Below are positions 5,850 through 15,121 of a DNA stretch of 35,877 bases, piece by piece. Numbering within the stretch: the stretch's first letter is position 1; the number at the start of each line of letters is the position of its first letter. Source of the DNA: Verrucomicrobiota bacterium (lineage in GTDB: Bacteria; Verrucomicrobiota; Verrucomicrobiia; Opitutales; Opitutaceae). The notes beneath the pieces were generated by a model. The model was not told where the DNA came from. It was given only the letters and a program-made list of their open reading frames with translations, and did not search any database. The stretch lies in assembly GCA_026398135.1 (NCBI GenBank), contig JAPLTN010000051.1, positions 1-35,877 of the forward strand. The letters are read 5' to 3'. The position numbers were made by a program, and so were the translations under genes.

Positions 5850-7199
5850 ATGTTCGCTCAACGTTTCATCACGGTTTTGCTATTCGGGATCGGTTCGACC
5901 TCAGCAGCACTCGCACAAACTTCGCCGAGCTATCCCGAGGCACTCCTGCCGGAACTCACCCAGATTCTGGATCAGGCGCGGGAGCGGGCGCCTGCCTTGG
6001 TCGCCCAGGCCATTGCGCAGCAGGAGGCTACAGCCCGGCTCGACGCGGCAAAGGCGGCTTATTACCCGCGGGTGGATTTCGGGGGGAATTTTGGCTTAAC
6101 CCAGAGCAGTTATTTAGACGGCAATTATCCCGATGAACAAACGACGGGCGTGGCTTTTAACGCCCGCGTCACCCGTCCGATTTACCACTGGGGTGCCATC
6201 GAGGCCAAAATCCGGCAGGCTTCACTCGATTTCACCAACGAATCGCTCCAGCGCGTGTTTATTCTCCGTCAGATAAAGCGCGGGCTGCGAGCGGATTACC
6301 TCACGCTTTTGCTTAACCAGACTTCGTTGGAAATTCTTCGCCTGCGGCGCCAGATCACGGCGGATAATGCCACCCGCACCGCTTCGGATCGGCAGCAGGG
6401 GGCCTTGTCCACCATGGCATCCGAACAAGCTGAAATCAATCTGGCTCAGGATGTTTTGAACTTGGAGCAGGTCGATTCAGATCAGACGCGCATCGTGGCG
6501 GATTTTAAACGGAATCTAGGTTGGGATGCTCCGTTGCGTCTTGATGTGCCGCCGCCACGCCCGGATGCCGCCGCGCTAATCGCTTGGGCGGAGCAGACGC
6601 GCGCTCAAGGGCTCGACGCCTGGCTGGCCGACCATGCCGAGGTTAAGCGTCGGGAAAATCTCATTGAGCGTGAGCGGGCCGAGCTCATTCGCATTAAATC
6701 CACCCAACGGCCCTTGCTAAACTTTACCGCCAGTATCGGGCAGGGGCAGCGCAACACTTCGGCTGCGAATAATGTGTCCACCTTAAGCACGTTCATCGGT
6801 ATCGACGCCACTTGGAATATTTTCGACGGCTTCGAAACTTCCGCCCGCAAGCGCGAGTCGCAGCTGCGTCAGCGTCGGCTGGAGCGCCAGTTGGAGGCTT
6901 ATCGCGCGGAGTTGCGGGCTCAGGCGGTAAACGTGGTTGCGCAAATCGGATTTTTGGCGCGCCAGTATCAACTGGACGAGCGGCGCGCGGCCTTGGCCGA
7001 GCAGACGTTTTCGATTCAAAAACGCGAAATGGACGAGGGTCGCGTATCTGCCCCCGTATTTCGCCAGCAGCAGGTTGCGGTGCAGGAAAGCCGCTTGGCG
7101 GAATTGCGCGTCCGGGTGCGGCTCTTGCTCGCGTTGAACGACTACCTCGATCTCACGCTTCCGGCGGCGGTTGATGCGCAGCTAGATTATTCTAAATAG
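5850..7199 (+). CDS. TolC-family outer membrane efflux protein
   Basis: The 449-residue protein forms the outer-membrane/periplasmic exit duct of a tripartite exporter. The frame is open from 5769, but ATG 5850 is preferred because it places a signal peptide (MFAQRFITVLLFGIGSTSAALAQ) exactly at the N-terminus. The mature part has the two pseudo-repeats of TolC proteins: long alpha-helical stretches rich in Ala, Gln, Glu and Arg (about residues 30-70, 135-245 and 330-420) alternating with beta-barrel strands such as RVDFGGNFGLTQSSYL and LLNFTASIGQGQ. The gene is followed by a membrane-fusion protein, an ABC permease and an ATPase in the same direction, so it is very likely their dedicated outer-membrane partner. 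The substrate is unknown. Confidence 0.92.
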   Translation: MFAQRFITVLLFGIGSTSAALAQTSPSYPEALLPELTQILDQARERAPALVAQAIAQQEATARLDAAKAAYYPRVDFGGNFGLTQSSYLDGNYPDEQTTGVAFNARVTRPIYHWGAIEAKIRQASLDFTNESLQRVFILRQIKRGLRADYLTLLLNQTSLEILRLRRQITADNATRTASDRQQGALSTMASEQAEINLAQDVLNLEQVDSDQTRIVADFKRNLGWDAPLRLDVPPPRPDAAALIAWAEQTRAQGLDAWLADHAEVKRRENLIERERAELIRIKSTQRPLLNFTASIGQGQRNTSAANNVSTLSTFIGIDATWNIFDGFETSARKRESQLRQRRLERQLEAYRAELRAQAVNVVAQIGFLARQYQLDERRAALAEQTFSIQKREMDEGRVSAPVFRQQQVAVQESRLAELRVRVRLLLALNDYLDLTLPAAVDAQLDYSK

Positions 7200-7223
7200 T
7201 TTTCTAGATGGCCTTATCCAGGA

Positions 7224-7301
7224 AATTGGCCGGGGACGTCCAACGCTACACCCCATCAATTTATTTCAATCTCATGCAGGGTTGGCCGTCACCGGCCAAT
7301 T
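7224..7301 (+). promoter_or_regulatory. Mutually exclusive hairpins in the leader between the TolC-like and MFP genes
   Basis: Three short segments lie in the 145-base gap: A at 7224-7233 (AATTGGCCGG), B at 7282-7288 (TTGGCCG) and C at 7292-7301 (CCGGCCAATT). B and C form a 7-bp GC-rich hairpin with a 4-base loop just before the MFP start at 7345. A can instead pair with all ten bases of C. Alternative pairing could act as an attenuator or RNA processing site, but no regulatory family is recognised. Confidence 0.3.
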
Positions 7302-7344
7302 CAGCCAAACATCAACGCATCCTAGAATTAACTACCCCCTTTTT

Positions 7345-8448
7345 ATGTCTGCTCTTAAACGAAGTTTCACGGTTTTAACGGTGCTGGGCTTGGCCGTGAG
7401 TGGCTGGTTTTTTCTTGGCTCCGCCACGGAGCTAGAGGTTGCCCAGGTGCTGCGGGATATCGCGATCGATGCCGTGCCGGCGGCCGTCAAAGTGGACCCG
7501 GAGTTTCAGGTCACTATCACCAGCGATGTGGCCGGCTTGGTGCGCAAATCCAACGTGAAACGCGGGCAGCGAGTCAAAGAGGGCGATATGCTCTTCGAGA
7601 TCGATTCCTCCAAATACGCCCTGGAGCTGGAGCAGATGAAGTTGCAGCTCGAAAACACCCGCCAGCAGTTCGCGCTGAATCTCGATCAGCGAACCGCGCT
7701 GGAGCGGCGCAAAGAGGATTTGGAGAACTTTGCCAAACGCACCGCCTCGGGCGAATACCCCGAAATCGAGCTCAAGCGCCGCACCGAGGAGTTTGCGATG
7801 TTTCAGGAGGGGCAGGCCCGGGAGCGTCTTGGGCGCGAGCAGCAACTCACCAACATGGCTCACGCGATTAAGTTGAAGCAAAAGGACATCGATGATTGCG
7901 CCCTGCGTTCGCCGGCGTCGGGTACGATCACAGAGATTTTTGCCCAGCCCGGTGAAGTTATCGGGGTTCGTGCAGCTTTGGTCCGGCTTTACAGCGATGC
8001 TTTGTTGGTTGAGGCGCGCATTAACGAGGAAGACTTTTCCGGCATTCGTCCTGGACTGGATGCCTCGGTGCGTTTCCTCGCTTACGGACCTGAGCTTTAC
8101 ACCGCCAAGGTGGTGAAGGTGTTGCCCAACGCGGATCCGCAGAACCAACAATACCGAGCCTACTTGGAGGTCGAAATCGCCGCCGACCGGCTCATTCCGG
8201 GTTTGAGCGGCGAGGCCAGCATCTTGCGCAACCGGCGAACCAACACGCTCGTGGCGCCTCGAGCTGCGTTGCTAAACGGTGCGGTCTTCGTGGTCGAAAA
8301 CGGCGTCGTGCGTCGCCAGCCGGTGGAAATCGGGTTCCGCAGTCTCACTGCCATCGAAATCATCAAAGGGGTAAAAGAGGGCGATGTAGTTGCGCTGACG
8401 GGGTTAGATGGCCTTCGCGACGGGCAACGGGTTCAGGTGCGGAAGTGA
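7345..8448 (+). CDS. Membrane-fusion (periplasmic adaptor) protein of an ABC exporter
   Basis: The 367-residue protein is an HlyD/MacA-like adaptor joining the inner-membrane ABC transporter to the TolC-like duct. ATG 7345 is chosen over an upstream TTG because it gives an N-terminal membrane anchor (about residues 7-26, FTVLTVLGLAVSGWFFLG). A split lipoyl half follows (VTSDVAGLVRK-type segment and GQRVKEGDMLFEID). Next is a charged alpha-helical hairpin (about residues 85-185), then the second lipoyl half (LRSPASGTITEIFAQPGEVI) and a beta-barrel/membrane-proximal domain to the C-terminus. No lipobox cysteine is present. Together with 5850-7199, 8925-10163 and 10329-11003 it completes a MacAB-TolC-like system. 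A 476-base interval containing the four-helix-bundle unit separates it from the permease gene. Confidence 0.92.
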   Translation: MSALKRSFTVLTVLGLAVSGWFFLGSATELEVAQVLRDIAIDAVPAAVKVDPEFQVTITSDVAGLVRKSNVKRGQRVKEGDMLFEIDSSKYALELEQMKLQLENTRQQFALNLDQRTALERRKEDLENFAKRTASGEYPEIELKRRTEEFAMFQEGQARERLGREQQLTNMAHAIKLKQKDIDDCALRSPASGTITEIFAQPGEVIGVRAALVRLYSDALLVEARINEEDFSGIRPGLDASVRFLAYGPELYTAKVVKVLPNADPQNQQYRAYLEVEIAADRLIPGLSGEASILRNRRTNTLVAPRAALLNGAVFVVENGVVRRQPVEIGFRSLTAIEIIKGVKEGDVVALTGLDGLRDGQRVQVRK

Positions 8449-8454
8449 ATTACA

Positions 8455-8493
8455 AAGCTGGTAAGCTAAAAAGCTAGTAGAGCTAGTAAGCTT
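8455..8493 (+). repeat. Left inverted repeat of the four-helix-bundle unit (copy c)
   Basis: The segment begins AAGCTGGTAAGCTAAAAAG and contains the core CTAGTAGAGCTAGTAAG at 8474-8490. Its imperfect reverse complement lies at 8876-8914, on the other side of the gene 8505-8864. The same 17-base core recurs exactly at 10180-10196. Confidence 0.85.
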
Positions 8494-8504
8494 CTAAACA
8501 CCAC

Positions 8505-8864
8505 ATGGCAGGTAACGATTCATGGCGCGATCTCCTGGTATGGCAAAAGTCCCACGCCGCTTGCCTGAGCATTTACCGGCATACGGTTTCATTTCCGCCC
8601 GAAGAACGCTTCGGCCTTACAGCGCAACTGCGTGGCTCTGCACGCTCAATCCCCACCAATATTGCCGAAGGTAAAGGCCGCGCCACCAATAACGATTACC
8701 GCCATTTTCTTATCATTGCGCGTGGCTCACTGGAAGAAACTCGCTACCATCTCCTGCTCTCGCGTGATCTTAGTTATCTAAGCGATCCCGACTACACACA
8801 ACTGGAGTCAAACTACACTGAAATCTCGCGCATGCTCAACGCTCTCATTCGGTCCCTTGGCTAA
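8505..8864 (+). CDS. S23-type four-helix-bundle protein
   Basis: The 119-residue protein matches the family named after proteins encoded in 23S rRNA intervening sequences. Diagnostic segments are DLLVWQKSH near the N-terminus, FPPEERFGLTAQLRGSARSI, PTNIAEGKGR, and FLIIARGSLEETRYHLLLSRDL. Known members form pentameric four-helix bundles; the fold is shared with Avd, the accessory protein of diversity-generating retroelements. The molecular role of stand-alone copies is unknown; a basic nucleic-acid-binding surface is described for relatives. Here it is not inside an rRNA gene. It lies between two imperfect inverted repeats and splits an exporter operon, so its partner is more likely the flanking repeats than the exporter. 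ATG 8505 matches the usual N-terminus. Confidence 0.92.
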   Translation: MAGNDSWRDLLVWQKSHAACLSIYRHTVSFPPEERFGLTAQLRGSARSIPTNIAEGKGRATNNDYRHFLIIARGSLEETRYHLLLSRDLSYLSDPDYTQLESNYTEISRMLNALIRSLG

Positions 8865-8875
8865 CACCCTCCCAC

Positions 8876-8914
8876 CCTTACCAGCTCTACTAGCTTACAA
8901 GCTTTACCAGCTCC
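8876..8914 (-). repeat. Right inverted repeat of the four-helix-bundle unit (copy d)
   Basis: Read on the minus strand this gives GAGCTGGTAAAGCTTGTAAG followed by CTAGTAGAGCTGGTAAGG, aligning along its length with copy c at 8455-8493. The 17-base core on the plus strand occupies 8877-8893. Confidence 0.85.
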
Positions 8915-8924
8915 CAACACCACC

Positions 8925-10163
8925 ATGTCCCCCGCTCTCCTCATCGCGCTTCGGTTCCTCAGTGCGCGCAAACGCGCAATGCTCATGAGTCTGGCCGGTA
9001 TCGTTTTTGGCGTGGCATTTTTCGTCGTCACCCAGGCCCAGACCGCCGGGTTTGAGAGCTATTTTATCAAAACCATTCTGGGGGTGAATGGCATGGTGCG
9101 CATCGAGGACCGCATCCAATCCACCCGTTCACTCGCCGCGACCCAGGGCAGTGACTTCACCATCGCGGTGGAGGGTTCGGTGAAATACATTCCGGGCGTT
9201 CAGTATCCGAACGACTTACTCGGCGCGCTCAAGCGTTTCCCCGAGGTTACCGCCGCTTCGCCGGTCATTCGCGGCAATGCTACTCTGATCGCGAATTTTC
9301 GTGAGTATGACGTCAAACCCTACGGCATCGAGTTGGCCTCGTTCGTGAACGTGTCGGACCTCGACACCCAGATTATCGACGGTTCCCTGGGCGCTTTTTC
9401 TGAAAACCCCTACGGCCTGATTCTCGGGGTGCGCATCGCCAAGCGCATGAATCTTCAGATTGGCGACTCCGTGTTGCTCGACGCGGCCGGAGAACCGCAG
9501 CGTTTCCGCATCAACGCCATCTACGAAACCGGGATCGATCAAGTGGATCGCGAACGGGTTTACCTGCATTTGCCCGCAGGCCGGAGCCTGCTCAACAAAC
9601 CGGTGGGGGCCTCGTTTATCCAAGCCAATGTCGTGGCCCCCGAGCTCGCGCCGGCTTTGGCCATGCGCATTGAAGAGGCCGTGGGCCACTCCACTCTGGC
9701 GTGGCAGGAGCGGGAGAAAACCTGGCTGCAGGTCTTCAGTGTGCTGCGCATCTCTTCGGCGCTTACCATTTCAACGATCATTTTCATCTCCGGTTTGGGC
9801 ATGTTTAATACGCTGGTGATGATCGTCGTGGATAAAACCCGCGAGATCGCGATTCTGCGCTCCATGGGCTATACCCGCGAAGACATCAGCCGGATTTTTA
9901 TGCTTCAGGGCGGTATTGTCGTGGCTTGCGGCGTGGTTTTCGGCTGCTTAGCCGCTGCCGCCGGTACGTATGCGCTTTCGCATATTCCGATTCGTATCCG
10001 GGGTATTTTTGCCAGTGACCATTTCGTGGTACTTTGGGATCCTTGGCACTACGTGGGGGCTGCGGTCATTGCGGTTATCGTGGTTATGGTCGCTAGTTAT
10101 TTCCCTTCCCGCCGCGCCGCGCGGCTGGAGCCGGGATCGATCATCCGAGGGAGCTCTTCGTAG
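8925..10163 (+). CDS. ABC transporter permease, FtsX/MacB type
   Basis: The 412-residue inner-membrane protein has the four-helix layout of the MacB/LolC/DevC-like permeases. One helix lies near residues 18-41 (MLMSLAGIVFGVAFFVVTQA). A large periplasmic domain (about 45-275) follows, then three helices near 278-302, 328-352 and 370-396. The cytoplasmic loop with the ATPase-contacting motif (KTREIAILRSMGYTREDISRIF) and the C-terminal YFPSRRAARLEPGSIIRG segment are characteristic. It pairs with the ATPase at 10329-11003 and with the upstream adaptor and TolC-like genes. MacB-type systems transfer substrates from the periplasm or outer leaflet outward through TolC rather than across the inner membrane. 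The cargo is not predictable. Confidence 0.93.
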   Translation: MSPALLIALRFLSARKRAMLMSLAGIVFGVAFFVVTQAQTAGFESYFIKTILGVNGMVRIEDRIQSTRSLAATQGSDFTIAVEGSVKYIPGVQYPNDLLGALKRFPEVTAASPVIRGNATLIANFREYDVKPYGIELASFVNVSDLDTQIIDGSLGAFSENPYGLILGVRIAKRMNLQIGDSVLLDAAGEPQRFRINAIYETGIDQVDRERVYLHLPAGRSLLNKPVGASFIQANVVAPELAPALAMRIEEAVGHSTLAWQEREKTWLQVFSVLRISSALTISTIIFISGLGMFNTLVMIVVDKTREIAILRSMGYTREDISRIFMLQGGIVVACGVVFGCLAAAAGTYALSHIPIRIRGIFASDHFVVLWDPWHYVGAAVIAVIVVMVASYFPSRRAARLEPGSIIRGSSS

Positions 10164-10165
10164 CG

Positions 10166-10198
10166 AATAAGCTGATAAACTAGTAGAGCTAGTAAGAC
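10166..10198 (+). repeat. Left arm of an empty inverted-repeat pair (copy e)
   Basis: The segment contains AATAAGCTGATAAA then the core CTAGTAGAGCTAGTAAG at 10180-10196, identical to the core of copy c. It begins three bases after the permease stop codon. Its opposing partner is at 10280-10317. Confidence 0.8.
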
Positions 10199-10279
10199 CG
10201 CCCATATAACCCATGAACTCACGCCCACGCCGAGCGGCATTCGCAAGCGAACGCCCTACCAGCCCCAGCGCTTTTGACG
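10199..10279 (+). other. Gene-free spacer of the empty repeat pair, with a small hairpin
   Basis: This 81-base spacer has no plausible gene. It contains a hairpin GGCATTCG-CAAG-CGAACGCC with one mismatch at about 10238-10257. It takes the place that the four-helix-bundle gene occupies in the neighbouring unit. Confidence 0.4.
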
Positions 10280-10317
10280 CTCTTACTAGCATTACTAGCT
10301 CTACCAGCTTATCAGCC
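10280..10317 (-). repeat. Right arm of an empty inverted-repeat pair (copy f)
   Basis: On the minus strand this reads GGCTGATAAGCTGGTAGAG then CTAGTAATGCTAGTAAGAG. The core (plus-strand 10291-10307) differs at few positions from copies c, d and e. Removing 10164-10317 would leave about 11 bases between permease stop and ATPase start. Confidence 0.8.
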
Positions 10318-10328
10318 ACCCTCGCTTT

Positions 10329-11003
10329 ATGAGTCTCCTTCGCGTTGAAAATCTCCACCGTTACCTTGGCGAGGGCGATACTCGGTGCCACGCCTTGCGC
10401 GGGGTGGGGTTTACCATCGAGCCGGGTCGCACCTACGCCATCGCCGGGCATTCCGGCTCGGGGAAGAGCACGCTGCTTTATTTGCTCGGATTGCTCGATA
10501 TTCCCGACCAAGGCCAGATCTGGGTGGGTGATCGCGAGACCAGCCGTCTGACTGACGACGAGCGCACCGCCGTGCGCAACGAACACATGGGTTTTGTGTT
10601 CCAGTTTCATTTTCTGCTCAAGGAATTCACCGCGCTGGAAAACGTGATGCTGCCCATGCGTAAACTTGGCCGCCTCTCCGAGGAGGCGATGCGGGCCAAG
10701 GCCTCGGATTTGCTCGTGGCGGTTGGTCTCGGTGACAAAACCCGTCGTCTCGGTACCCAGCTTTCCGGCGGTGAACAACAACGCGTCGCCATCGCCCGCG
10801 CGCTCGCCAACGACCCCGGCCTCATCCTCGCCGACGAGCCCACCGGCAATTTGGACCATACCAACGCGGACCGTGTTTTCGCGCTCTTGAGCGACATCGC
10901 CCACCAGCGCGGGCAGGCCTTGCTCATGGTGTCGCACAATCCCGAGCTCGCTTCGCGCTGCGACCACGTTTTTCGCATGCAGGACGGGGTGATTTTGCCG
11001 TAG
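10329..11003 (+). CDS. ABC transporter ATP-binding protein, MacB/LolD type
   Basis: The 224-residue cytoplasmic ATPase has a Walker A motif GHSGSGKST at residues 40-48, a Q-loop at FQFHF (about 91), the signature LSGGEQQR at 145-152, Walker B LILADEPT at 165-172, the D-loop GNLD and the switch histidine in MVSHNPEL. The length and the Q-loop-to-signature spacing are typical of the LolD/MacB-N group, which works with FtsX-type permeases. It powers the exporter formed with 8925-10163, 7345-8448 and 5850-7199. It is separated from its permease gene by the empty inverted-repeat pair. ATG 10329 begins directly with the family start MSLLRVENLHR. Confidence 0.95.
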   Translation: MSLLRVENLHRYLGEGDTRCHALRGVGFTIEPGRTYAIAGHSGSGKSTLLYLLGLLDIPDQGQIWVGDRETSRLTDDERTAVRNEHMGFVFQFHFLLKEFTALENVMLPMRKLGRLSEEAMRAKASDLLVAVGLGDKTRRLGTQLSGGEQQRVAIARALANDPGLILADEPTGNLDHTNADRVFALLSDIAHQRGQALLMVSHNPELASRCDHVFRMQDGVILP

Positions 11004-11069
11004 AGAGCTTCGGGCGATCTCGCTAAATCAGGTTTACCTGTATCATGGCCCGGGTTTTATCGCTGCTGC

Positions 11070-11627
11070 ATGGATTTCGTTACCTCAATCTCCCGTTTGT
11101 CTGCCGAACTGGAGCGCGAGGGGGTTCGGTTTGCCCTGATCGGGGGCTTGGCCATGGCGCTGCGTGGGGTGGAGCGGGCAACGTTCGACGCGGATTTTAT
11201 CCTGATGATGGAGGATTTGCCACGCGCTCACGCCATCCTGATCGCGTCTGGTTATACGCGCGAATTTTACTCCGAAAACGTATCCTACTATTTCCATTCC
11301 AGTTCCGCGCTCGCCCGGGTGGATATTTTGCACGCGTTCCGCGGACCGAGTTTGGGCATGTTGCAACGGGCGCAACGCTTGCCCTTGGGCCCCGGTTGCG
11401 CCCTGCCAGTCGTGCAAATCGAGGACCTGATCGGCCTAAAGGTGCAGGCCCTCGTCAACAATCCCGACCGCGTCTTGGGCGATTGGAACGACATCTACCG
11501 GCTTGTCTCTTACGCGGGCGGCCAAAAACTCCCGCTTCAATGGGACCTGCTCGCCGACTATTTAACGCTTTTTCGCCTCGAGGCTAAACTACCTGAGCTC
11601 CAACGCTTATATGGCCCGATTGACTGA
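11070..11627 (+). CDS. Nucleotidyltransferase-like protein (AbiEii/MNT-like fold)
   Basis: The 185-residue protein has the pol-beta-type nucleotidyltransferase layout. It carries GGLAMALRG near residues 25-33, then RATFDADF with a DxD pair at about 40-42, and a third acidic residue in ARVDIL near residue 91. A later segment (PVVQIEDLIGLKVQALVNNPDR) matches the helical region of DUF6036/AbiEii-type proteins. Such proteins are found in toxin-antitoxin and abortive-infection systems, and also as stand-alone enzymes of unknown target. The next small frame overlaps it by 17 bases. No second AbiE-like partner or HEPN protein is visible, so calling this a toxin-antitoxin pair would be speculative. 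Confidence 0.75.
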   Translation: MDFVTSISRLSAELEREGVRFALIGGLAMALRGVERATFDADFILMMEDLPRAHAILIASGYTREFYSENVSYYFHSSSALARVDILHAFRGPSLGMLQRAQRLPLGPGCALPVVQIEDLIGLKVQALVNNPDRVLGDWNDIYRLVSYAGGQKLPLQWDLLADYLTLFRLEAKLPELQRLYGPID

Positions 11628-11826
11628 CATCGAAAAAGCCCAGCTCCTCGCCGCTGCTGTGGTATTTGCCGAGCCGAACGCCTCGCTCCACCGGGTGCCG
11701 CCTCCATCTGCCCGGCGGCCTGCGCTCGGCTTGGGGACCTACTTTGCTCAACTCGACTCCTGGCAACGGCTTCGTCCCGCGCCGCCCAAACCCATTAACT
11801 TTTCCGGCGACTCCTGGCGCCTGTAG
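11611..11826 (+). CDS. Small hypothetical protein overlapping the nucleotidyltransferase gene
   Basis: The 71-residue frame starts inside the end of the preceding gene (17-base overlap) and ends 18 bases before the next start. The N-terminus MARLTDIEKAQLLAAA looks like an amphipathic helix; the rest is proline-rich without a recognisable domain. The tight packing supports translation with the nucleotidyltransferase gene. I do not recognise a family and assign no function. Confidence 0.5.
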   Translation: MARLTDIEKAQLLAAAVVFAEPNASLHRVPPPSARRPALGLGTYFAQLDSWQRLRPAPPKPINFSGDSWRL

Positions 11827-11844
11827 TTCTTCCACACTTCCGTA

Positions 11845-13044
11845 ATGGCCCTGTCCTTTTTCTCCAAAACCCCGCCTTCGATCCGTACGCGTTGCCGCGA
11901 CGACTCGGCCACCAAGTTGCGCCTGCGTTACGCGCCCTACTACCACGCTCCCGAATGGCAGGACGGGACCCGCATCCGGCTCGGCGGACGCGACATGATC
12001 ATGTTGGCGAGCAACGATTACCTCGGGCTCTCCTTCCACCCCAAGACCATTGAGGCCGCCCGCGCCGCCCTGCACCAATGGGGCACGAGCACCACCGGCG
12101 CACGCGTTTCCAACGGCTCCCGTTCCTACCACGTCGCCCTGGAGGAGAAACTCGCCGCTTTTCTCGGTAAAGAGGCCTGCCAAGTCCACTCCGCCGGTTA
12201 CCTGTCCTGCCTGTCGGCCCTCGCCGCCTTCGCGCAGAAGGGAGACATCATCGTCGCGGATAAAAACATCCACTCCTGCATGTGGGACGGCGCCCGGCTT
12301 TCCACCGCCACGCTCGAACGCTTCGCGCACAACAACCCCGAGGACCTGCGCACCGTCGCCGCCGCGCTACCGGCCGACGCACCCAAGATGCTCGCCGTCG
12401 AGGGCGTTTACTCGATGGAGGGGCACATCGCCCGCCTGCCCGAGCTGCTTGCCACCGCCGCCGAGCACAAGATGTTCACCGTGCTCGACGACGCCCACGG
12501 CTTCGGCGTTCTGGGCTGCCAGGGACGTGGCACCGCCGACCATTTCGGCGTGGCCAACCAGATCGATATTATCTGCGGCAGCATGTCGAAGTCGCTCGGC
12601 TCGGTCGGCGGTTTCGTCGCCGGGGATCGCGAGCTGATCGAATACCTCCGCACCCACGGCAAACACACCATCTTTAGCGCCGCCCTTCCGCCCGCCCAAG
12701 CCGCCGCCGCATCCGCCGCGCTCGACATCATCCAGAACGAACCCGAACACCTGGCGCGTTTGCAGGAAAACACCCGCCGTTACCGCCAGATTTTGGTCGG
12801 TCTCGGTTTCGACACCTGGGGCAGCGAGACACCCGCCATCCCGGTCGTGATCGGAGACAAACAAAAGGCTTACGCTTTCTGGCAGGCTCTGATGGAGAAG
12901 GGGGTTTTCACCGTCATGTCCATCGCCCCCGCCGTGCCGCCGGGCAAGGATTTGATCCGCACCGCCATTTCCGCCGGACACACCGATGCGCAACTCGAAC
13001 AAATCGCCGACGCCTTCGCCTACGCGAAGAAAAAGGCGCTCTGA
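11845..13044 (+). CDS. Alpha-oxoamine synthase family PLP enzyme
   Basis: The 399-residue fold-type I PLP enzyme condenses an amino acid with an acyl thioester with loss of CO2. This family includes KBL (2-amino-3-ketobutyrate ligase), BioF and serine palmitoyltransferase. Visible motifs are SNDYLGLS (56-63), the cofactor aspartate/histidine region DDAHGFG (215-221) and the Schiff-base lysine K249 in GSMSKSLGSVGG. The substrate-specificity class is uncertain. No biotin genes, threonine dehydrogenase or obvious sphingolipid genes are adjacent. An acyl carrier protein/ketoacyl synthase operon exists 18 kb away (29176-33458), which does not establish a link. The ATG start gives an N-terminus of normal length. 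Confidence 0.88.
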   Translation: MALSFFSKTPPSIRTRCRDDSATKLRLRYAPYYHAPEWQDGTRIRLGGRDMIMLASNDYLGLSFHPKTIEAARAALHQWGTSTTGARVSNGSRSYHVALEEKLAAFLGKEACQVHSAGYLSCLSALAAFAQKGDIIVADKNIHSCMWDGARLSTATLERFAHNNPEDLRTVAAALPADAPKMLAVEGVYSMEGHIARLPELLATAAEHKMFTVLDDAHGFGVLGCQGRGTADHFGVANQIDIICGSMSKSLGSVGGFVAGDRELIEYLRTHGKHTIFSAALPPAQAAAASAALDIIQNEPEHLARLQENTRRYRQILVGLGFDTWGSETPAIPVVIGDKQKAYAFWQALMEKGVFTVMSIAPAVPPGKDLIRTAISAGHTDAQLEQIADAFAYAKKKAL

Positions 13045-13051
13045 AGTTCTA

Positions 13052-13105
13052 AAGCTGGTAAGCGCATAAGCTGGTAAGCTGATAAGCTTGTAGAGCTAGT
13101 AAGCA
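13052..13105 (+). repeat. Extended AGCTGGTAAG-family repeat (copy g)
   Basis: The 54-base segment holds three successive AAGCTGGTAAGC-like words followed by the core CTTGTAGAGCTAGTAAG at 13087-13103. It lies just after the alpha-oxoamine synthase stop. Unlike the other good copies it has no opposing partner nearby. Confidence 0.8.
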
Positions 13106-13160
13106 TCAAACCACCGACTCTACCTAAGCCTGCGCCTCAACCTAACCGACACCTTCAAAC

Positions 13161-13382
13161 ATGACGCCTCTCGCCGCTCTCCGTCTCGTCGCCTTGGTCG
13201 GGCTGCTGCTCAGCTTCGGCGCGCTGGCGGCTAATATCGTCCAGACGTGGGACACCTTTGCGCCGGCCTACGTCGGCCATTACGTGCAACAACAACTCGC
13301 GCGTCCGCTGGTCGGCCTCGGTCTCGCGTTTTTGGTCCTGGTCCTGGCCCGCCCGCTCGCCCGATGGCTCGCGCGCGATTGA
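13161..13382 (+). CDS. Small two-helix membrane protein, unknown function
   Basis: The 73-residue protein has two hydrophobic segments: about residues 5-25 (AALRLVALVGLLLSFGALAA) and 47-65 (PLVGLGLAFLVLVLARPLA). It ends in a basic tail. Its 3' end overlaps the start of the heparinase-like gene by 19 bases in another frame, which suggests co-translation. The family is not recognised. Confidence 0.6.
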   Translation: MTPLAALRLVALVGLLLSFGALAANIVQTWDTFAPAYVGHYVQQQLARPLVGLGLAFLVLVLARPLARWLARD

Positions 13383-15121
13383 GTCGGGTCGTCCGCGCGG
13401 TCGGGCTGGCCGGCCTCTGGCTCGGCGTTGTCGGCTTCGCCGTTCCTGCTTTCGCCGCCCCGCACCCCGAAGCGGACGCCGCCCTCGTCCATACATTTAC
13501 CCTCCAAGGCGTCACCGGCACGCAGCCGTTCGATGCCGCCGGCGGTTACGACTGGGATTGGCGCGGCCCGCGCGACGACCCCGAATGGGCCTGGTTTTTT
13601 AACCGCCACGGCTGGTTTCCCGAACTGCTGGCCGCGTATCAAGACACCGGCGACGCCCGCTACCGTGATTCCTTGCTCGCCACGCTCGACGACTGGATCG
13701 TCAAACACCCGGCTCCCGGGCGCATCACCTTCTCCCCCGCCTGGCGTCCGCTTGAGGCCGCGCGGCGTCTGACGGAGAGCTGGTTGCCTATCGCGCCGGG
13801 CCTTGTCGCTCTGCCGGAGTTTACGCCGGAGCGGGCGTCGCGCTTTCGCGCCAGTCTGGTCGATCACGGCGAACACCTGCGCTCCCACCACGCGTTTGGC
13901 GGCAACCACCTCGTCACAGAGATGCTGGCGCTCACCCGGCTCGCGCTCCAGTTCCCCGATTTGCCCGGCGCCGCCGACTGGCTCGCCTACGGTCTCGATC
14001 AACTGGCACGCGCCTACGACGAACAAATTTATCCCGACGGCGCGCACACTGAACTCTCCACCCATTATCAGCGTGTCATTGCCTTAAACTATCAGGAGCT
14101 GCTGATCTCCCTCCGCCATTATCAACGGGCCGAACTCGCCGCCGCCTGGGCTCCGCGCGTCGAGCGGCTTTGGCTCTACGTCGCCGCCGTCATGACCCCT
14201 GCCGGAGCCAATCCGCTCAACAACGACTCCGATCGCGAAGACTACCGCGGACTGCTTGCCAGCCACGCCCCGGCGCTGCTCGGCCGCCCGCCGCAGACCA
14301 CGCATTTCCCCTACGCCGGGCAGACGGTGTTTCGCGGCGGTCCGGAGGCCGCGCAGTGGGCGTTTTTCGAGGCCGGGCCGCGCGGCACAGACCATGACCA
14401 CCCCGACCACCTGCAATTCGACCTCGCGCTCGGCGCCGACGAATTCCTGGTGGACAACGGCCGTTACACCTACGCTCCCGGCCCGTGGCGCGACTACTTT
14501 GCCGGACCGACCGGGCATAACGTGGTTCTCCTCGAAGGCCGGGGTGCGGAGAAGCGGCCGCCCCGAGTTTCGGCGGCTCCGGATGCTCTGTGTTTTCGGC
14601 GCGTGGATGGGTTTGAGTTGGCGTGGGGCGACGCGGTTTTCTCATCGGACACGAACGCCCGCGCGGGCGACTGGCGGCGCGTGGTCGTTTATGCTCCCGG
14701 CGCTGGCTGGGTGGTGATCGACCGCGTCGTCGCCTTCGGCTCGGCCACCCTTACGACCCAGTGGCACTGGGCACCGGGAGTTACGCTGGCCCCGCCAGCC
14801 GACGGTGGAAACGTTCGCGCCCAGGCGGGCGTATCAGAACTCGCCGTCGCGCCACCGGGCGGCGGCAGTTGGCAAACCTTTCGTGGCGTCGAGCCGCCTG
14901 GCAAGGTGCGTGGCTGGCACAGCGATCTTTTCAATCGCCGCGAACCGGCCACGCAGACCGACTACGTGCAGACGCTGCGCGGTCCGCAGGTGAACGTCTG
15001 GGTGTTTCGCCCCGCCGGAGCGGCCAACCAGTCCGGGCTGACCGCCGAGCTGACGCCCGAGGGTCGGGTGCGCATCCAAGCCGGTGCGCAGAGCTACGTG
15101 GTGGATCCCGAAGCGCCCTGA
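13364..15121 (+). CDS. Exported heparinase II/III-like protein (polysaccharide lyase candidate)
   Basis: The 585-residue protein starts at ATG 13364, which places the signal peptide MARARLSRVVRAVGLAGLWL...VPAFA (residues 1-31) at the N-terminus; the frame is open further upstream without one. An alpha/alpha-toroid lyase N-domain covers about residues 60-330 (GWFPELLAAYQDTGDARY, HHAFGGNHLVTEM, LARAYDEQIYPDGAHTELSTHYQ). The heparinase II/III beta-sheet domain follows, with HDHPDHLQFDLALGADEFLV and DNGRYTY. These His/Tyr-containing blocks are the family's catalytic region. It probably cleaves acidic polysaccharide such as alginate-, heparin- or ulvan-like glycan in the periplasm or outside. Substrate is not predictable from the sequence alone. 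Confidence 0.88.
   Translation: MARARLSRVVRAVGLAGLWLGVVGFAVPAFAAPHPEADAALVHTFTLQGVTGTQPFDAAGGYDWDWRGPRDDPEWAWFFNRHGWFPELLAAYQDTGDARYRDSLLATLDDWIVKHPAPGRITFSPAWRPLEAARRLTESWLPIAPGLVALPEFTPERASRFRASLVDHGEHLRSHHAFGGNHLVTEMLALTRLALQFPDLPGAADWLAYGLDQLARAYDEQIYPDGAHTELSTHYQRVIALNYQELLISLRHYQRAELAAAWAPRVERLWLYVAAVMTPAGANPLNNDSDREDYRGLLASHAPALLGRPPQTTHFPYAGQTVFRGGPEAAQWAFFEAGPRGTDHDHPDHLQFDLALGADEFLVDNGRYTYAPGPWRDYFAGPTGHNVVLLEGRGAEKRPPRVSAAPDALCFRRVDGFELAWGDAVFSSDTNARAGDWRRVVVYAPGAGWVVIDRVVAFGSATLTTQWHWAPGVTLAPPADGGNVRAQAGVSELAVAPPGGGSWQTFRGVEPPGKVRGWHSDLFNRREPATQTDYVQTLRGPQVNVWVFRPAGAANQSGLTAELTPEGRVRIQAGAQSYVVDPEAP

Follow-up and report, generated by a model that had tools for sequence, protein, structure and literature searches.

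The window analysed here is the whole 35,877-nt stretch of contig C102 of a Verrucomicrobiota genome from the family Opitutaceae (G000; 3.39 Mb in 117 contigs). It holds an operon for a membrane fusion protein (MFP), an ABC permease and an ABC ATPase, into which two array-bounded elements are set, one with an S23 gene and one gene-less. The features are as follows:

7345..8448, + strand: MFP gene, 5' of the S23 insertion (product name from the initial annotation; start set at ATG 7345, TTG 7282 in the ORF listing)
8456..8493, + strand: left array, about 4-5 units of AGCTNGTA(R)
8505..8864, + strand: S23 gene, 119 aa, PF05635/TIGR02436 four-helix-bundle protein
8877..8912, - strand: right array, the AGCTNGTA(R) unit on the opposite strand, about 4 units
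8925..10163, + strand: ABC permease gene, 3' of the S23 insertion (product name from the initial annotation)
10160..10328, no strand assigned: gene-less element with about 90 nt enclosed by opposed arrays; exactly 169 nt inserted compared with G154 and G152
10329..11003, + strand: ABC ATPase gene, also of this operon (product assigned from the sequence itself)
13051..13105, + strand: single AGCTNGTA array, 16 nt of which are missing in G154

An S23 gene between opposed tandem arrays

The S23 element separates the MFP gene, which stops at 8448, from the permease gene, which starts at 8925. Its protein scored 131.4 bits against PF05635 (cut-off 33.8) and 125.5 bits against TIGR02436 (cut-off 24), which places it in the S23 family, and up to an E value of 0.1 its Pfam matches consisted of 23S_rRNA_IVP and a sub-threshold bAvd only. 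The initial annotation had this gene enclosed by inverted repeats, and the enclosure is real: the arms at 8456-8493 and 8877-8912 are 86% complementary over 28 nt without a gap, and a local alignment of the two spans 36 columns, with a single gap, and scores 25. The annotation's single 39-base repeat did not hold, however, since each arm is a short tandem array of degenerate AGCTNGTA units at 8- or 9-nt spacing, the left one reading AGCTGGTA AGCTAAAA AGCTAGTAG AGCTAGTA and the right one being a like array on the other strand. A 19-mer core (≤3 mismatches) matched the window at seven sites, three in the S23 arms, three in 10178-10309 and one at 13085, compared with 0 matches in 100 dinucleotide shuffles. 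As RNA, the element is predicted to form a long hairpin (z -4.76 against shuffles). With 8455-8914 excised in silico, the MFP and permease genes are 16 nt apart, in agreement with the annotated gap of about 16.

Three further S23 genes were found above the cut-off in G000 by profile search, together with one weak match (21.1 bits) below it. GTAGYGA heptamers form the opposed arrays around the second gene (contig C31), and two divergent genes (C77 and C4) are enclosed by opposed arrays of units close to AAACGCTG and CAATGAC. Thus, all 4 of the 4 above-cut-off S23 genes of this genome are bounded by opposed arrays, with a different unit each time and inverted-match scores of 25, 24, 21 and 22.

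Filled and empty sites in relatives

With the permease gene as the anchor, the syntenic site was located in relatives; 8 of the 15 genomes of the genus, G000 included, yielded a match, one of them at only 25% identity. The S23 element occupies the same junction in G158 (99% permease identity) and G154 (97%). The junction is empty in G152 (83%), where 20 nt separate the MFP stop from the permease start, and in G075 (73%), where about 40 nt hold neither array nor S23 gene. The proposal that gene and repeats are one inserted unit, for which a search for an empty site in relatives had been suggested, is therefore borne out by these two junctions and by the pairs of gene and unit at unrelated sites described below; among the relatives read, the gene is not present at this site in every one. 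Arm length varies between species, the right arm being longer in G154 (about 7 units).

The window S23 gene is under purifying selection, with dN/dS values of 0.075, 0.024 and 0.093 for the three pairs among G000, G154 and G158. Synonymous divergence among these genomes was lower in the S23 gene (0.26-0.39) than in the permease gene (0.51-0.81). Elsewhere in the window, the segment at about 11002-11843, with a 185-aa ORF (11070-11627), is absent or replaced in G158, and at about 23472 G158 has ~2.96 kb extra where the window has a G-rich, repeat-like patch.

Gene-less copies and dispersed arrays

The gene-less element at 10160-10328, between the permease and ATPase genes, is present in G000 and G158 and absent from G154, G152 and G135, in which the permease stop and the ATPase start overlap as ATGA. 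The insert lies between TTC and ATGAG and provides the permease stop codon in the window; at this site, the only exact insertion available, no clear target duplication was seen. It has the terminal inverted repeats required of a MITE, and as RNA it is predicted to form a long hairpin (z -4.64 against shuffles). Its spacer contains a small inner palindrome, GGCATTCGC..GCGAACGCC, at 10236-10255, and is similar in G158, though synonymous sites of the adjoining permease gene diverge widely.

Across G000, a 17-mer core (≤2 mismatches) had 35 matches compared with 4 for the reversed pattern, and the GTAGYGA pattern was dispersed, with 125 matches compared with 29. Among the 30 GTAGYGA loci and two AGCTNGTA loci that were read out of all matches, nine gene-less opposed GTAGYGA pairs and two AGCTNGTA pairs were found; 11 of the 18 GTAGYGA arms were 28 nt long (four heptamers), and the inner spacers measured 22-61 nt. 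Called ORFs contained 10 of 27 AGCTNGTA arrays, compared with 84% of random positions, and 17 of 28 GTAGYGA arrays, compared with 92%, rough counts from a caller that over-calls under the same rule for arrays and random positions. Five contigs (C11, C18, C40, C112 and C116) have AGCTNGTA arrays no more than about 0.9 kb from an end; the assembly may therefore have broken at the repeats, and the copy numbers may be lower bounds.

Opposed arrays around S23 genes in many phyla

Three sets of S23 loci were picked by protein similarity alone, with ORFs of the same loci as controls; simple rules served to place starts and neighbouring ORFs, and the control ORFs include spurious ones. Periodicity was scored as strong when at least 17 of 21 positions matched at lag 6-9. 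In the diverse set (the best 80 of 587 confirmed S23 matches, 77 of which were used, three being too close to a contig end), the left flank was periodic at 44 of 77 S23 loci compared with 34 of 508 control ORFs, and the right flank at 36 of 77 compared with 30 of 508. The lag was 7 in 65, 8 in 14 and 9 in 1 of the 80 periodic arrays. The inverted-match score averaged 19.9 at the S23 loci; controls averaged 11.1, left and right flanks taken from different loci 10.5, and direct matches 11.6. At 51 of 77 loci the score was at or above the controls' 95th percentile.

The gammaproteobacterial set, drawn from 369 genomes of which 22 had matches (28 of 29 loci used), gave periodic flanks on the left at 16/28 loci compared with 1/86 controls, on the right at 15/28 compared with 4/86, and an inverted match at 18/28 compared with 5/86. 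In the window's own family, where 125 of 150 genomes have an S23 match, the 28 loci used were 27 of 30 fetched plus L002, leaving out the window's S23 gene and its two 95-98% relatives; the counts were 8/28 compared with 2/125 (left), 10/28 compared with 2/125 (right) and 15/28 compared with 8/125 (inverted match). Fisher p values for the flank tests in the three sets ranged from 2e-5 to 3e-24. For the latter two sets, five loci with an internal stop were read past it to set the gene end. An earlier 33-locus analysis, overlapping with these two sets, used 25 loci, the other 8 being without the motif for placing the gene; at two of these 8 (L035 and L036), arrays are present on hand reading. 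Opposed tandem arrays around S23 genes are a general design found in many phyla. The initial annotation had proposed counting how often an S23 gene lies between opposed copies of its repeat: the arrangement proved frequent, but there is no one common repeat, the unit differing by S23 lineage. Its contrary case, repeats unassociated with S23 genes, was not what we found, as the repeats go with S23 genes.

At the 71 of 133 loci with both arms clear, arrays of four units were commonest (31 left, 38 right), followed by five units (17 left, 17 right); the left array ended a median of 15 nt 5' of the start codon, by our own start placing, and the right array began a median of 8 nt 3' of the stop. 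Clear opposed arrays (score 17-32) were present at 7 of 12 plasmid loci, most of them cyanobacterial. The others comprised one with arrays on both sides in direct orientation (L097), two with a left array only within the 110 nt read (L107 and L108) and two with no clear opposed array pair (L098 and L105). Three plasmid loci have the S23 gene within a CRISPR operon (L097, L099 and L101, from Pseudanabaena, Anabaena sp. 90 and Picosynechococcus), in the order cas6-S23-cas4 twice and cas10-S23-cmr3 once. Orientation was counted at the 52 of 80 loci with both neighbours no more than 400 nt away; in the 39 cases with co-directional neighbours, the S23 gene was sense to antisense at 32:7.

Array units and S23 proteins vary together

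Protein similarity correlated with unit similarity at the 49 of 77 loci whose left and right arms were periodic (r=0.41, p=0.0005) and in a larger set of 74 of 133 loci (r=0.30, p=0.001). The share of pairs with similar units was 0-2% below a normalised protein similarity of 0.6, 37% at 0.6-0.7 and 76% at 0.7-0.85, and reached 3 of 3 pairs above 0.85. The covariation is thus one among similar proteins: without the pairs at or above 0.6, the correlation was not significant (r 0.06, p 0.12), so that descent of whole elements without recognition could also produce it. Flank homology within 1.5 kb was missing in 50 of 69 similar-protein pairs (≥0.6), and the 34 pairs with a similar protein and the same unit included 19 without flank homology and 15 with it. 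A cyanobacterium (L149) and an acidobacterium (L184) have similar S23 proteins and a common unit with no flank homology. In a tree of 68 S23 proteins, built on few columns, with many open forks and with phylum labels assigned by hand, the labels are still clustered, changing 29 times where the minimum possible was 12 and the shuffled mean 45.8.

Array copy number follows the presence of the cognate gene. AGCTNGTAGAGCTNGTA (≤1 mismatch) has 41, 94 and 96 copies in G000, G154 and G158, respectively, and 0-5 copies in each of the remaining 77 of 80 genomes. A cognate S23 gene, at 95-100% identity, was found in exactly these three; the next-best match, in G027, had 64% identity and a stop. Because the three genomes are near relatives, the amplification may be one event. 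Independently of this, GGGAACAGGGAACAG has 1462, 422 and 125 copies in the three cyanobacterial genomes of L135, L185 and L143, S23 loci that carry GGGAACA/GGGAATA arrays, and at most 15 copies in the other 46 of the 49 genomes searched (for 50 of 80 loci chosen), four more cyanobacteria among them. In 20 cyanobacterial regions, picked from places listed for two genomes, 17 gene-less copies were single arrays and 3 had a convergent partner.

Protein fold and candidate partner enzymes

The predicted single-chain model of the window S23 protein (pLDDT 96.2) has the four-helix-bundle fold, with Z scores of 21.8 to XCC0516 (2gsc) and 17.9 to BT_0352 (2rld). The fold likeness to Avd of diversity-generating retroelements (DGR), noted in the initial annotation, was recovered at Z 15.1-15.7 (VIA), ahead of the next unrelated bundle at 12.1 or lower, in a list from which missing folds carry no meaning. 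By profile, the protein fell below the Avd cut-offs (DivGenRetAVD, 24 compared with 80 bits; bAvd, 20.2 compared with 40). The PDB entries 2gsc and 2rld, titled conserved hypothetical or of unknown function, have five chains each, and we take these S23 structures and Avd to be pentamers.

A reverse transcriptase (RT) match was found once in G000, on contig C86 rather than on the window contig C102, with none adjacent to the window S23 gene, and once in G154 (PF00078). No PF00078 match (E 0.001) was found in single-contig G003, despite its 8 S23 matches, nor in G030 (13 S23 matches), G037 (10), G001 (8), G009 (7) and G158. Matches to Y1_Tnp occurred in 38 of 46 genomes tested, G000 having five matches; at E 0.001 there was none in G159, G182, G183 and G185, the genomes of L131, L154, L155 and L157, S23 loci with strong left arrays, and G183 had neither an RT nor a Y1 transposase match. 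The initial annotation had a moving enzyme supplied from elsewhere in the genome; since RT and Y1 are each missing in some element-carrying genomes, neither looks obligatory, and both are possible partners in G000, with its one RT and five Y1 matches.

A proposed mobile element read by its own protein

We consider it probable, at roughly 0.68, that the S23 gene and its arrays together make up a mobile element, with a protein that recognises the arrays around its gene and spreads array-bounded segments. The stretch 8456-8912 would then be an autonomous copy, its sole gene encoding the S23 four-helix bundle and its ends being opposed arrays of about four to five short units that this S23 lineage would recognise. 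Unit-protein covariation and co-occurrence suggest that the protein may bind the arrays, a possibility raised in the initial annotation. It would most probably work on them as an oligomer, with a single strand of RNA or DNA folded and presenting the repeated units, one unit per subunit and a single-stranded intermediate, and would recruit host replication or repair, which would catalyse the copying or insertion of the bounded segment. Because RT and Y1 are missing in some S23-bearing genomes, binding by S23 with copying by host replication or repair is the mechanism that we prefer. Targets would be mainly gaps between genes, mostly in the sense orientation, and S23 activity in trans may spread gene-less pairs and single arrays of the cognate unit. 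A further-reaching form, at somewhat less than even odds, is that S23 proteins lie behind a widespread class of elements lacking a recognisable transposase, in which a ring-shaped protein reads its own 7-9-nt array, perhaps at one unit per subunit, and directs its spread, and that 23S rRNA intervening sequences (IVS) and, by extension, the cyanobacterial, Xanthomonas and Beggiatoa heptamers are products of this system.

Several observations count against such an element. It encodes no enzyme, and the exact insertion of the gene-less copy has no clear target duplication. An inverted match under the controls' 95th percentile was found at 26 of 77 diverse loci, and of the 12 plasmid loci 5 lack clear opposed arrays. 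Where the neighbouring genes are co-directional, 7 of 39 elements run antisense to them. Some arrays lie inside called ORFs (10/27 and 17/28 in G000), and cyanobacterial gene-less copies are mostly single arrays (17/20). The unit-protein correlation is lost without pairs at or above 0.6, and the genomes with co-occurrence are either near relatives of the own family or all cyanobacteria. In addition, the authors of a Coxiella study considered the S23 protein of its IVS to be probably not expressed in vivo (PMC4990558).

Alternatively, the arrays could be post-transcriptional or DNA regulatory sites kept for operon regulation, with S23 as a repeat-binding regulator, for instance in mRNA stability or RNase III processing. 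The strong predicted hairpins (z -4.76 and -4.64), the location between cistrons, the 32:7 sense bias, the purifying selection on the S23 gene and the similar inner spacer of the gene-less copy in G000 and G158 all fit regulation, as does the translational role suggested for Beggiatoaceae TAACTGA arrays in PMC4679880. We nevertheless regard it as unlikely, given that close relatives differ in filled and empty sites, that similar S23 proteins with their unit recur at unrelated sites in different phyla, and that each S23 gene of one genome has its own unit.

A little less likely again is that S23 is passive cargo between arrays that either are simple-sequence repeats in their own right or owe their movement to an unrelated enzyme such as a Y1/REP transposase. 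The unit follows the S23 lineage, array amplification is confined to genomes with the cognate S23 gene, and G159, G182, G183 and G185 have strong left arrays despite lacking a Y1_Tnp match, all of which argue against a cargo role; single arrays are common, however, and the wide occurrence of Y1_Tnp (38 of 46 genomes, five matches in G000) would suit it.

We hold it to be very improbable that an RT encoded elsewhere turns the RNA hairpin into cDNA with S23 in the role of Avd. Such an RT element would be in line with the Avd-like fold (Z 15.1-15.7 compared with 12.1), the sense bias and the single RT matches in G000 and G154, but six S23-bearing genomes (G003, G030, G037, G001, G009 and G158) gave no PF00078 match and the RT of G000 is on another contig (C86).

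Finally, an ordinary operon gene, read in the operon's direction and flanked by chance repeats or terminators, was ruled out by the flank controls, in which arrays are rare around control ORFs, and is contradicted by the 0 core matches in 100 shuffles and by the absence of the element in relatives.

To return to the mobile element, the S23 protein family, IVS and heptamer arrays are each already known, and we found no report that combines them into a single mobile element with a specific unit and gene-less copies: among the journal papers listed for S23, IVS, heptamer or REP-like repeats and Avd, no title or abstract start joins S23 genes with arrays. Our analysis suggests that S23-array elements are a widespread, little-noticed type of mobile DNA. 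The link pairs two orphans, S23 proteins with no assigned function and heptamer arrays reported with no mechanism of spread, and makes S23 function testable at once, since the flanking array is a candidate binding sequence for each protein. If true, it would add a family of mobile elements with no known recombination enzyme, located in operon gaps in many phyla and also in CRISPR-cas operons.

Comparison with known systems

Avd has a fold in common with S23, and according to PMC12875486 it is required for retrohoming by a reconstituted DGR. Different from Avd, the window S23 protein is below the Avd and bAvd cut-offs, and the only RT match of its genome lies on another contig.

In the REPIN/RAYT arrangement, a RAYT gene is bounded by opposed repeats that are also dispersed as gene-less pairs. 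The window element likewise has a gene between opposed repeats and gene-less opposed pairs elsewhere in the genome; unlike REPIN/RAYT, it encodes a four-helix bundle instead of a Y1 (HUH) transposase, and its ends are tandem 7-9-nt arrays.

Dispersed heptamer arrays are known as GGGAATC in Xanthomonas, GGGGAYT in Nostoc and TAACTGA in Beggiatoaceae. Cyanobacterial STRR are further arrays of this kind. In the 369 gammaproteobacterial genomes (the class of G161), the best identity to XCC0516 was 59%; no Xanthomonas was among the best 80 of 587 S23 matches, and no Xanthomonas or Beggiatoa was recognised among the genomes reached. According to PMC4692102, Xanthomonas GGGAATC arrays mostly have four units, are mainly intergenic and include 70 convergent pairs in one genome and 75 in another. 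PMC4679880 gives TAACTGA in sets of two to six and reports heptamer arrays without a mechanism of spread. The terms S23 and four helix have 0 hits in the main texts of both papers.

IVS of 23S rRNA resemble the window element in having an S23 ORF between complementary ends. The window element differs in lying between two protein genes, with gene-less arrays of its unit in the genome. IVS are excised from the transcript by RNase III; for the window element, a stem is predicted. It is not in rRNA, with no Rfam match up to an E value of 1 in window positions 7000-14000, and hence is not an IVS. PMC4990558 terms the function and origin of IVS unclear and describes, for Coxiella, a 28-bp terminal stem and tandem GACAGAT heptamers just 5' of the S23 start. 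Of eight other loci checked with Rfam, only L104, on an Azospirillum lipoferum plasmid, is in rRNA: here a 23S rRNA gene contains, in its own orientation, an S23 gene with opposed GACRGAN arrays. The connection between S23 and IVS drawn in the initial annotation thus recurs as the same architecture within rRNA, and IVS look like a special case, those members of a larger group of S23 elements that reside in rRNA.
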